IMG/VR virus record: IMGVR_UViG_3300046516_000640
Location: 1 to 32,016 of that record
Source of the DNA: a virus
DNA length: 32,016 bases
Reading direction: 5' to 3' (one strand)
The position numbers and the translations under genes are program-made. Position 1 is the first letter of the stretch; every line of letters starts with the position of its first letter. Positions 25,649 through 28,338 of this stretch are shown here, piece after piece. Below the pieces are notes generated by a model, which saw nothing but the letters and a program-made list of their open reading frames with translations, did not search any database and was not told the DNA's origin.

Positions 25649-26052
25649 TTGATCTCGTCCTCGCCCACTGGCGGCATCGTCGCTTCGTTCTGCGTTTTCG
25701 GTTTGTAGCCGGATTCGATGCGTTGCGCCCAGTGGCGGGCTTTCTCGGCATCCAGTTGGTTATACCGCTTCTTCTTCTCGTCCAGCTCACGGCTCGCGAA
25801 GTAGTCATATCGCTGCGCCAACAGGAACAAATACGCCGGTGGGCATTCCGAGAAATGTCGATCCCTCATCGACGATCCCGCCCAGTCTTTCGGGTCTTTC
25901 GCCTTGATGAGCGGATCGCCATACGGGCCGTCAAGGTCCACGTGCAGCTTCTGATCGTCGGTCGGTTTGGCGGCAGCACGCTTCGACTTCGACAAGGCCA
26001 GTAGTTCTGCGAGGATGTTGCGAATTTCGGTGAGTAGTTGTGTGTCAGACAT
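25642..26052 (-). CDS. conserved-type phage early protein
   Basis: This 136-residue protein starts with a helix (DTQLLTEIRNILAELLAL) and a Lys/Ala-rich linker. A domain follows with DGPYGDPLIKAKDPKDWAGS, SECPPAYLFLLAQRYDYFA and KARHWAQRIESGYKP. The last three blocks (a D-P-x-x-W-x-G motif, then S-E-C-P-P-x-Y-L, then A-R-x-W-A-x-R-I) form a pattern seen next to recombination or replication genes in many phages; no function is known. The start at 26052 overlaps the previous gene by 8 bases; a longer start at 26100 would lie mostly in that gene. Confidence 0.72.
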   Translation of the reverse strand: MSDTQLLTEIRNILAELLALSKSKRAAAKPTDDQKLHVDLDGPYGDPLIKAKDPKDWAGSSMRDRHFSECPPAYLFLLAQRYDYFASRELDEKKKRYNQLDAEKARHWAQRIESGYKPKTQNEATMPPVGEDEIKW

Positions 26053-26269
26053 GAGCGCCCTTTTTATTCGTAAAGTCGTTGATGCTTGGGACTGACTCAT
26101 CCATCTGCGCCAAAATAAAGGCTCGTAATTGGCGCAAGAGAATCACCGTTGTCTCGACGTTCACATATACACCAATCGCCTCATTGGCACGTTCTACAAT
26201 CATGATGCCTGAGGCTGAATCGAATCCGATCTTGGTTGTGCATTTCTTGTCACCGCATGCGCAATTCAT
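26045..26269 (-). CDS. small protein with N-terminal cysteine cluster
   Basis: This 74-residue protein starts by TAATG overlap with the end of the exonuclease-recombinase gene and has a strong GAGGAG site upstream. The N-terminus has MNCACGDKKCTTKIGFD, a C-x-C-x4-C cluster that may bind metal. The rest (GIMIVERANEAIGVYVNV, LLRQLRAFILAQM) looks like a strand-helix unit. I recognise no family. Tight coupling to the recombination gene suggests joint expression. Confidence 0.65.
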   Translation of the reverse strand: MNCACGDKKCTTKIGFDSASGIMIVERANEAIGVYVNVETTVILLRQLRAFILAQMDESVPSINDFTNKKGAHV

Positions 26270-27921
26270 TAGAACTCCTCGGGCGCATACAGGCCCGCCA
26301 CGACGTCAGGATAGACCAGCCGCGCCAGCTTCGACGAGGCACGGGCGACGAGCATATCAGCCGGGTTCTTCGTCCAGCCGCTGCCGTTCTTCACGAGTCC
26401 TGCGGCGTGCGCCTCTTCGATCGTGTAACGTAATTCCATCGGTTCGTCGCCTTCCCGCTGCGTCACGAACGTGGCCGCGGTCGGCGTGCGCTCCGTGCAG
26501 CGGAACGACTTCGCCTTGCCAGACTTGATGACCAGCGCCCGCAAGGCATCGGCGGCCAGCGTCGGGCGCCCTTCCACAATGTGAAAGGCACGCAGACTCG
26601 CCATAGCGCTGAGGCCCAGTTCGCGGCCGGAGAGGACGGTCGACAGCACGGCTTCAGGCGTGCCATACGCGCCGAACAGGCGGGCCTTGAACAACAGGCC
26701 GGCTAGTTGCACGGCCTGGTTCATGGACTGCGGCTCGAGCTGCCGTTCATAGTCCACGCCTTCGGCCCGGTAATAGGCAGCAATCTTCGCCTCTTCTGTA
26801 GAGGCTAAGGCGACCGGTGTATCCCCGCTCCGGTCAACGGCGGTTCTCGCGCTCTCCACAACAGCCGGAATTGGCGTTGCCTTGGGCGCTGGATTTTGGT
26901 GCGCAACACGCCGCGCCACGTCAGCCACGAACGTGCCCATGTCTTTCGGCGGCGCCTCCATGTGCTTGGCGGCATGAGCGACAAAGGAGCCGAGTGCATC
27001 GCTGGCCTGTGCGCCGGTCAGTTCCCTTGCGCCGCCAACCGACCGGTCGATGCGGTCAAAGATCGCATCGGTCTTCGGGTCAATCGTCGGCATCGCTTCG
27101 TTGATGTCGCTCATGATGTCATCCTCTCCGCTGAACGTGGCCACGTCGTCGGGTGTCCGTTCCTTCAGCACGTGCGCAAAATCAATCGGCGCATCCGTCC
27201 GCAGGGCCAGCAATTGCCGCACGATGGGCAGACGTTCGCGGAAGGCCAGCAACGATGCCGATTGCGCAGGCTTGATACCTTCCTCTGCGCCCTTGTCGAT
27301 GGCGGCATACAGGTCGTCAAGATTGCCGAATATTTTCAGGATGGCTGCTGCGCCCTTTGCTCCGATGCCCTTGACGCCGACGATGCCGTCTGAGGCATCG
27401 CCCACAATCGCCAAGTAGTCCATGATCTGATTTGGATTGACGCCGAACTTCTCGCAGACAGCCTCTTCGGTCATCACATTGCCCGTGATGGGTGACTTGA
27501 CGCTGACGCGATCGTCAACGAGCTGCAAGAGGTCTTTATCGCTGGACACGACCAGCACGGGCCAGTTGCCGACCTTCGCGGCTTCCACGCCTGACGCCAC
27601 GACGTCATCCGCTTCGAAGCCTTCCGCCTCCCACGTCGGGAAGCCATCCGCGCGCAATGTCTCCAGCGCAATCTGGCATTGATGGAAGAATGGTTCAGGC
27701 TTCGATTCGCGGGACGCCTTGTAAGTTGCGTCTAATGCCTTCCTGAACGACTTGCGTGAATCCAGGCAGAGCGCCACGTGCGGCTGACCGGACGCCAGTG
27801 CGTGCACCTTCGCAATGATGCCGATGGACGTGGCATTCGGATTCGGGTCATTCGCGGCCATGTGCCACACGGGATGCGCGATGCTGCTGAAGTCGATCAA
27901 CACGATCTGTTTGTCGCTCAT
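26269..27921 (-). CDS. fusion of FEN-type 5'-3' exonuclease and RecT-like single-strand annealing protein
   Basis: This 550-residue protein joins two recombination activities. Residues 1-269 form a 5'-3' exonuclease/flap endonuclease domain: Asp10 in LIDFSSIAHP, Asp54 followed by FRKALDATYKASR, GFEADDVVAS (103, 105, 106), SSDKDLLQLV (128, 130) and GDASDGIVGVKGIG (175, 178). All the acidic metal ligands expected by eye are present. Residues about 395-550 match RecT-like annealing proteins: QAVQLAGLLFKARLFGAYG, GRELGLSAMASLRAFHI, GRPTLAADALRALVIKSG and a C-terminal RLVYPDVVAGLY. The linker 270-394 starts at Met270. Such exonuclease and annealing pairs are normally separate genes. AGGGGA precedes the ATG, which overlaps the upstream stop (ATGA). 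Confidence 0.88.
   Translation of the reverse strand: MSDKQIVLIDFSSIAHPVWHMAANDPNPNATSIGIIAKVHALASGQPHVALCLDSRKSFRKALDATYKASRESKPEPFFHQCQIALETLRADGFPTWEAEGFEADDVVASGVEAAKVGNWPVLVVSSDKDLLQLVDDRVSVKSPITGNVMTEEAVCEKFGVNPNQIMDYLAIVGDASDGIVGVKGIGAKGAAAILKIFGNLDDLYAAIDKGAEEGIKPAQSASLLAFRERLPIVRQLLALRTDAPIDFAHVLKERTPDDVATFSGEDDIMSDINEAMPTIDPKTDAIFDRIDRSVGGARELTGAQASDALGSFVAHAAKHMEAPPKDMGTFVADVARRVAHQNPAPKATPIPAVVESARTAVDRSGDTPVALASTEEAKIAAYYRAEGVDYERQLEPQSMNQAVQLAGLLFKARLFGAYGTPEAVLSTVLSGRELGLSAMASLRAFHIVEGRPTLAADALRALVIKSGKAKSFRCTERTPTAATFVTQREGDEPMELRYTIEEAHAAGLVKNGSGWTKNPADMLVARASSKLARLVYPDVVAGLYAPEEF
27112..27129 (-). promoter_or_regulatory. strong internal ribosome binding site at the exonuclease-SSAP junction
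   Basis: Read on the minus strand, GGAGAGG at 27129-27123 is followed by an ATG at 27114-27112, in frame with the fusion. This is Met270, right at the end of the exonuclease domain. Initiation here would give a separate 281-residue annealing protein in addition to the full fusion. The site is better than most true start sites in this window. It may be a relic of two once-separate genes, or be in use. Confidence 0.55.
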
Positions 27922-28031
27922 GATTTCCCCTGCTCGTAGCGATTGGCCTTTTGCCAGTCGTCGGACATCTGCGGATCAAAGGCTGGCACATGCCACCAGC
28001 GCCACAGCGTCAGCCAGAGAGCGCGCATCAT
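27918..28031 (-). CDS. 37-residue small protein before the recombination gene
   Basis: This small ORF starts at tandem ATGs (28031 or 28028), where the first overlaps the stop of the upstream membrane microprotein. It ends by ATGA overlap with the exonuclease-recombinase start. It has LWLTLWRWWHVPAFDP and a charged C-terminus (DDWQKANRYEQGKS). The amphipathic Trp-rich start may contact membrane. Support is coupling on both sides; no family is recognised. Longer readings in this frame extend into unrelated neighbouring genes. Confidence 0.5.
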   Translation of the reverse strand: MMRALWLTLWRWWHVPAFDPQMSDDWQKANRYEQGKS

Positions 28032-28138
28032 CGCCAGCCGCCCATCATGAACAGGCCCATGGCGATGCCCAGCAGCACGCCGCAGGCCACGATGATCGCA
28101 ATGTCCAGCCACGGCAGCCGCGTGCCCACGACGCGCAT
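28028..28138 (-). CDS. 36-residue single-pass membrane protein
   Basis: This microprotein has one clear membrane helix (LDIAIIVACGVLLGIAMGLF) after a short basic N-terminus (MRVVGTRLPW) and a C-terminal MMGGWR. The ATG overlaps the upstream stop (TAATG) and the stop overlaps the next start. Small one-helix proteins in phage early operons have been linked to host membrane or superinfection effects in general, but nothing here identifies a function. Confidence 0.55.
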   Translation of the reverse strand: MRVVGTRLPWLDIAIIVACGVLLGIAMGLFMMGGWR

Positions 28139-28338
28139 TACAGCGACTCCAAGGCTTTGTAATACTCGTCGCGGCAACGGTCGCTGCAGAAGGCATACTG
28201 CCCATTGGCTGCCCAGATGGCCGGGCGGCACGGTTCGCCGCAGGCTTCGCAGTTGGGCTCGTCGGATTCCGGTGGGTCGCTGAGTGGATCGCAATACGCC
28301 GGGTCTTGCCCAGGATCGCGATAGTCATAGCGGCTCAT
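28138..28338 (-). CDS. small zinc-finger-like protein
   Basis: This 66-residue protein has an acidic N-terminal part (DYRDPGQDPAYCDPLSD), then CEACGEPC and CSDRC near the C-terminus. The pattern C-x-x-C-x3-C followed by F-C-S-x-x-C resembles MYND-like or TRASH-like treble-clef fingers, in which FCS-x-x-C is typical. The start is supported by GGAGACA upstream and by TAATG overlap with the preceding gene. The function is unknown. Confidence 0.68.
   Translation of the reverse strand: MSRYDYRDPGQDPAYCDPLSDPPESDEPNCEACGEPCRPAIWAANGQYAFCSDRCRDEYYKALESL

Follow-up and report, generated by a model that had tools for sequence, protein, structure and literature searches.

We analysed a window of 32,016 nucleotides (positions 1 to 32,016 of the IMG/VR virus record IMGVR_UViG_3300046516_000640, taken as one strand), identifying on its minus strand a gene in which a FEN-type exonuclease is joined in frame to a RecT/Redβ-like annealing protein (Table 1). 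The first-pass annotation had described one uninterrupted frame for both parts, and the gene is indeed a single ATG-started open reading frame (ORF) of 550 codons. Eight window ORFs near the fused gene gave marginal matches only when compared with PHROGs (best E 0.0049), none of them to a recombination nuclease, and Rfam and tRNA scans of the whole window returned no matches. The plus strand carries a structural module at 1287-23503 with PHROG matches to head scaffolding, major head protein, head closure Hc3 and tail fibre; five of ten large proteins scanned are without a PHROG match at E ≤ 0.001.

Table 1 Features of the fused gene and its immediate surroundings (window coordinates)
Feature	Position	Strand	Evidence
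Whole fused gene, FEN-type exonuclease, linker and RecT/Redβ-like annealase, 550 aa	26269..27921	-	ORF, Pfam, PHROG, model, relatives
FEN-type 5′-3′ exonuclease domain (residues 1-262), nine acidic ligand positions all present	27136..27921	-	Pfam, PDB sequence matches, conservation, pLDDT
Disordered acidic, Pro/Ala-rich linker (residues 263-389)	26755..27135	-	pLDDT, length variation, dN/dS
RecT/Redβ-like annealing core (residues 390-550), without C-terminal extension	26272..26754	-	phrog_561, model, tail lengths
Possible internal start: GGAGAGG, 8 bases, ATG (Met270)	27112..27129	-	Anti-SD energy, near relatives
AGGGGA, ribosome-binding sequence of main start	27926..27931	-	-6.5 kcal/mol with anti-SD
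Upstream ORF, 136 aa; stop codon shares bases with the fused gene's ATG (ATGA)	27918..28328	-	
Small downstream ORF; ATG overlaps the stop of the fused gene (TAATG)	26045..26269	-	Marginal PHROG match, E 0.061

The amino-terminal part of the protein matches Pfam 5_3_exonuc_N (PF02739) over residues 6-160 (E 4.2e-30, 105 bits against a cut-off of 34.3) and 5_3_exonuc (PF01367) over residues 161-249 (E 4.4e-21, 75.6 bits against a cut-off of 40), and the FEN domain of Taq polymerase is found by sequence (E 2.6e-30). Pfam exonuclease domains are present in all 45 fused representatives collected from other virus contigs (E ≤ 0.01). The acidic ligands expected of such an enzyme, previously noted as complete, occupy nine columns (D10, D54, E103, D105, D106, D128, D130, D175 and D178) that are invariant in 45 of the 45 representatives; eight of these align with the acidic Taq positions 67, 117, 119, 120, 142, 144, 188 and 191, as counted off that alignment, and D10 lies outside it. 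An AlphaFold model of the full protein, built with 45 aligned sequences, has ten-residue pLDDT means of 92-98 over residues 11-250. By family, residues 1-249 are a FEN-type 5′-3′ exonuclease, with both activity and polarity predicted from that membership.

The same model contains two confident domains (mean pLDDT 84), with a pTM of 0.55 that does not fix their mutual arrangement; the annealase domain modelled alone reaches a pLDDT of 91. The first-pass annotation had placed a RecT-like domain at about residues 395-550, and this part does match an annealing family, the PHROG of RecT-like annealing proteins phrog_561, over residues 396-549 (E 3.5e-25), and 25 of 26 scanned annealase parts of the family likewise match a PHROG of RecT-like type. 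Pfam RecT scores 15.1 bits for the window protein, below its cut-off of 24, and matches 26 of the 45 fused proteins (E ≤ 0.01, lowest 5.9e-9). Searched against the PDB, the annealase model first returned λ Redβ 7ujl (Foldseek E 3.1e-4; VIA Z 8.8 over 131 residues, rmsd 3.5, aligned range 3-169) and then Listeria RecT (LiRecT) 7ub2 (Foldseek E 1.1e-3, VIA Z 6.8). Human RAD52 and phage Sak stand lower in the VIA list at Z about 6 and are intermixed with unrelated double-stranded-RNA-binding folds at Z 5-6.5, near the 6.8 of LiRecT, so that Redβ alone is clear on structure; a VIA Z below 8 possibly reflects just a shared arrangement, and Redβ is the sole match above that value. Judged by the modelled fold, residues 391-549 are a RecT/Redβ-type annealing core with a presumed annealing activity, and because a C-terminal extension is lacking just the core is filed as RecT/Redβ-type. 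Both domains of the original annotation therefore stand with shifted boundaries, the exonuclease ending near residues 250-260 rather than at 269 and the core starting near 391.

The two domains are separated by a disordered, fast-evolving linker. Ten-residue pLDDT means fall to 40-68 over residues 261-390, the length measured from the aligned column of residue 255 to that of residue 394 ranges from 39 to 203 amino acids among the 45 representatives, and dN/dS is about 0.4-0.7 in four comparisons, indicating selection much weaker than on both domains. Within this otherwise unalignable stretch we observed an acidic motif, DIxxAMP/ALP/TMP, at window positions 27088-27108 (residues 272-278). The motif also occurs in the linkers of loci L002, L003, L026, L031, L046 and L049, giving seven of 45 linkers where 0.012 would be expected in shuffled linkers, with four of the seven being close kin, and may serve as a docking peptide for a protein of replication or recombination.

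To what extent the fusion occurs elsewhere was followed in IMG/VR, where the window protein found 16 loci and the family alignment 236, of which the best 80, ranked by likeness to the fused query, were fetched. Both domains lie in one frame on 64 of these 80 contigs, seven run off the contig within the gene and nine carry a FEN without detectable annealase (L086, L088, L090, L092-L097); no separate annealase ORF was found in the 80 fetched loci. As these 80 were chosen by likeness to the fused query, 64 of 80 is not a natural frequency, and the scan was therefore repeated with the annealase part alone, using the narrower alignment A4. Among the best 80 of 184 loci, 39 are fused, three begin inside the gene and 38 are stand-alone. 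All of those with at least 54% identity are fused or cut and all of those with at most 45% are stand-alone, so that in the close annealase group 39 of 42 contigs are fused and the remaining three start inside the gene.

The 45 fused representatives share 29-83% identity with the window protein. Identity matrices of the two domains are correlated (Mantel r 0.80, reached in 0 of 999 permutations), and the domains have therefore travelled together. Both are under purifying selection: between the window and L002 the exonuclease has dN 0.142 and dS 0.966 and the annealase dN 0.015 and dS 0.395, with annealase dN the lower in each of the four comparisons made. As a single virus contig from a public collection, where it is listed as a virus record, the window could in principle owe the frame to an assembly or sequencing artefact that merged two neighbouring genes through a missed stop or a frame error. 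This explanation, to which we assign next to no probability, is refuted by the relatives, since the same single frame recurs on those 64 contigs (best 80 of 236), which carry many different metagenome numbers, down to about 29% identity and dN/dS is low in both domains. Relatives, models and selection thus lend strong support to the in-frame joining of a FEN-type to a RecT-like protein as first proposed.

Two label changes suffice for the 47 fused rows in quick trees of both the annealase (87 rows) and the nuclease (75 rows). In neither tree does the fused protein of L080 (5935-7551) join the main fused group, possibly as an independent second fusion or through a long-branch effect. The FEN of L086 (5917-7026) lies inside the fused clade in the nuclease tree, with no annealase detectable in its frame or locus and about 80 residues of other sequence following the FEN; the annealase may have been lost or replaced here. 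The trees, in which the deeper nodes have poor support and long branches, likely reflect one old fusion, perhaps with a second (L080) and one loss (L086).

We searched for the fusion among isolates and hosts. In 50,697 phage records two fused queries matched 353 and 87 records, none above 80% of the query, and in 72,556 plasmids 131 records matched a fused query, none above 80% coverage. Bacterial genomes were sampled in sets of 385, 396, 396 (limit 1e-8), 369 and 377 (limit 1e-15), and of these 1923 genomes 17 had matches to the A4 annealase profile; no fusion was found in the 15 checked with the exonuclease profile, and the frames in the remaining two (302 and 287 amino acids) are too short for one. 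Five genomes reached via the loci gave no matches. A scan of genome contigs with the fused alignment (best 80 of 575 relatives) gave no match beyond query residue 334 and is silent on prophage fusions. As these searches of phage, plasmid and bacterial records returned no fusion, no isolate or host was found. The plasmids NZ_AP014705 (39709-40515) and NC_012811 (913435-914244) of Methylobacterium/Methylorubrum contain FEN-like stretches without a listed gene, in a plasmid gene table that is incomplete. UniProt A0A6J5MUB0 (BFVD), a 462 amino acid protein of an uncultured Caudovirales phage, shares 38% identity over 551 columns (Foldseek E 9.5e-47) and is apparently the same fusion, labelled for its nuclease part alone ('PIN_53EXO domain containing protein').

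Fused and stand-alone annealases differ at their carboxy terminus. The core is followed by 0-8 residues in 38 fused proteins and by 79-312 in 36 stand-alone proteins, without overlap, the count leaving out three rows truncated by the contig end (one fused, two stand-alone); this contrast follows phylogeny and may stem from a single event. A C-terminal extension past the core is usual among RecT/Redβ annealing proteins, and in Redβ it is required for recombination. PMC7496540 presents a crystal structure of the λ Redβ C-terminal domain on λ Exo and states that Redβ binds an SSB peptide mainly via this domain, and PMC5052646 reports that Redβ lacking its C-terminus still anneals.

The neighbourhoods of the two groups were surveyed for nucleases that might accompany them, on contigs that may be incomplete. 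Exonuclease VIII relatives were found in none of 18 fused contigs versus two of three stand-alone controls, and a family-A polymerase in none of 19 fused contigs. PF09588 (YqaJ) was likewise absent from 19 fused contigs, an absence that carries no weight because the three stand-alone controls were also empty. Among 75 neighbours of 15 fused loci there was no RecE/YqaJ/λ-Exo-type family (Pfam E ≤ 1e-4), the nucleases among them being one VRR_NUC and one endonuclease VII. Four of ten tested neighbours of stand-alone IMG/VR loci are exonucleases (L226, L227, L229 and L243), and of four stand-alone relatives in GenBank two, ctz7E20 and Thermobifida phage P1312, carry a gene of RecE/exonuclease VIII type directly upstream (phrog_434, E 9.4e-38, in ctz7E20; annotated as exodeoxyribonuclease VIII in P1312). 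In phiKX1 and Salinibacter phage 2_3 no RecE-type gene is annotated beside the stand-alone annealase. The stand-alone annealase of ctz7E20 itself (L098:3977-4783, MW202753) is without CDS annotation in its GenBank record.

A ribosome site within the linker, GGAGAGG eight bases ahead of an in-frame ATG, had also been noted from the sequence, and the coordinates bear it out (GGAGAGG at 27129-27123, ATG of Met270 at 27114-27112). One message might in this way yield both the fusion and a free linker-annealase of 281 residues from Met270, to coat long single strands. The site pairs with the anti-SD at -6.6 kcal/mol versus -6.5 at the main start; twelve window ORFs contain 91 internal in-frame ATGs, three of which, Met270 included, reach such an energy. 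Of 16 close sequences, which include identical proteins, 15 retain the ATG together with a GAGG-type site, and L008 has the purine run despite a Glu-to-Gly change at residue 266; in L005 the internal start is absent at this position. The codons at the internal site are uniform, with GAG in 12 of 12 Glu rows and GAT in 13 of 13, as are those of 13% of 249 invariant columns.

Family-wide the signal is weakly above chance. With an SD of at least 4 bases 21 of 45 linkers carry an ATG site versus 16.9 expected, a count reached in two of 100 synonymous shuffles, and with at least 5 bases 11 of 45 versus 9.5 (30 of 100 shuffles as high); allowing GTG and TTG the counts are 32 of 45 versus 25.8 (one of 100) and 20 of 45 versus 15.2 (four of 100), the relatedness of the 45 rows overstating independence throughout. 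The position of SD and start within the linker varies across the representatives, and acidic linker composition by itself yields SD and ATG sites. Because L031, L046 and L049 have the DIxxAMP motif but lack its Met, protein-level selection can account for the conserved Met. An ancestral ATGA gene overlap at Met270 was considered and dropped, the relatives varying between ATGC and ATGA. Of the proposed free annealase the strong ribosome site and its retention in near relatives thus hold up, the family-wide support being slight; initiation at Met270 is possible, and a true dual product we regard as doubtful.

Phage recombination exonucleases and annealases are normally two separate proteins, as in λ Exo and Beta. 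The gene described here resembles λ Red (λ Exo/Redα and Redβ) and RecE with RecT in encoding a 5′-3′ exonuclease together with an annealase of RecT/Redβ fold. It departs from them in forming one chain where λ and Rac have two proteins, in using a nuclease of FEN type (PF02739/PF01367) rather than of λ-Exo/RecE/YqaJ type, and in having no C-terminal domain past the annealase core. Compared with SynExo two-component recombinases, it shares the encoding of both functions together but has neither two contacting proteins nor the same nuclease type, and is therefore SynExo-like in its presumed working without being filed as a member. The stand-alone SSAPs of ctz7E20 (MW202753), which also matches phrog_561, and P1312 have a homologous core but are separate genes with a C-terminal tail and a RecE-like exonuclease gene upstream. 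FEN domains of Pol I (Taq) and T5 FEN share sequence family and acidic residues with the nuclease part; the former are joined to a polymerase and the latter stands alone, whereas here the FEN is joined to an annealase. Phage T7 offers a comparable pairing in gp6, a FEN-family exonuclease that works with the annealing protein gp2.5, but gp2.5 is an OB-fold SSB rather than a RecT protein and the two are separate. We found no published description of a FEN-RecT fusion in the open-access literature, and none turned up in SSAP overviews. The SynExo passages of a Borg paper are irrelevant to such a fusion. Found in many distant uncultured phages, the joining of a FEN-type nuclease and a RecT/Redβ-type annealase in one chain looks like a genuine natural design, with a function that is predicted from the two families.

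We consider it likely that the protein acts as a single-chain recombinase for resection and annealing. The FEN-type domain would degrade the 5′-ended strand at a double-strand end, exposing 3′ single strands, and the tethered RecT/Redβ-type core would thereby be brought to the new single strand and pair it with a homologous strand, coupling loading to resection. The flexible linker of 39-203 residues would be a covalent stand-in for the way in which the C-terminal domain of free Redβ recruits the annealase to the nuclease, and the fused annealase would have shed that domain, placing resection and annealing in one chain at a fixed 1:1 ratio. That the tether supplants docking is suggested because fused annealases are without the tail that λ Redβ uses to bind its exonuclease. 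Several observations count against this reading. The Redβ C-terminal domain also contacts SSB and the fused protein is without it, VRR_NUC and endonuclease VII occur among the neighbours, L086 retains a FEN without detectable annealase inside the fused clade, and the stand-alone annealases of phiKX1 and Salinibacter 2_3 are without an annotated RecE-type neighbour.

The FEN might instead act mainly after annealing, with the annealase inserting single strands at gaps or forks, the tethered FEN removing 5′ flaps or RNA primers through flap-endonuclease activity and another nuclease carrying out resection. FEN-family enzymes cleave 5′ flaps, and Pol I FEN domains are the closest solved relatives by sequence. 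PMC5052646 also places Redβ recombination at the replication fork. We nevertheless judge this order of events unlikely: the 18 fused contigs yielded no exonuclease VIII relative and the 75 neighbours no family of RecE/YqaJ/λ-Exo type, leaving the FEN as the one resection enzyme identified there, and the lack of a family-A polymerase in 19 contigs argues against the FEN partnering a phage Pol I. Resection and flap trimming are compatible roles and can coexist. Very improbable, in our estimate, is a C-terminal domain that retains its fold but has lost annealing and assists the nuclease just as a DNA-binding or oligomerisation module. The core is short and without C-terminal extension and Pfam RecT falls below its cut-off for the window protein, but annealase dN is the lower in all four comparisons and, as noted above from PMC5052646, Redβ does not need its C-terminus to anneal.

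The proposed single-chain recombinase bears on a question left open in PMC7496540, namely how a trimer of λ Exo and a dodecamer of Redβ can combine when their subunits are observed at a 1:1 ratio. A natural fusion fixes this ratio, and loading coupled to resection becomes directly testable. At its broadest, the finding would be a widespread undescribed lineage of uncultured phages that encodes a FEN and a Redβ-type annealase in cis with a tether for the docking domain, in which the FEN both resects and trims, Met270 supplies extra annealase in the clade of the window and the whole pathway lies in one chain; as a complete picture we find this rather improbable. If resection by the fused nuclease is true, a FEN would be able to partner a RecT-type annealase in resection. 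The fusion, being compact, is also a candidate tool for double-strand recombineering outside E. coli.
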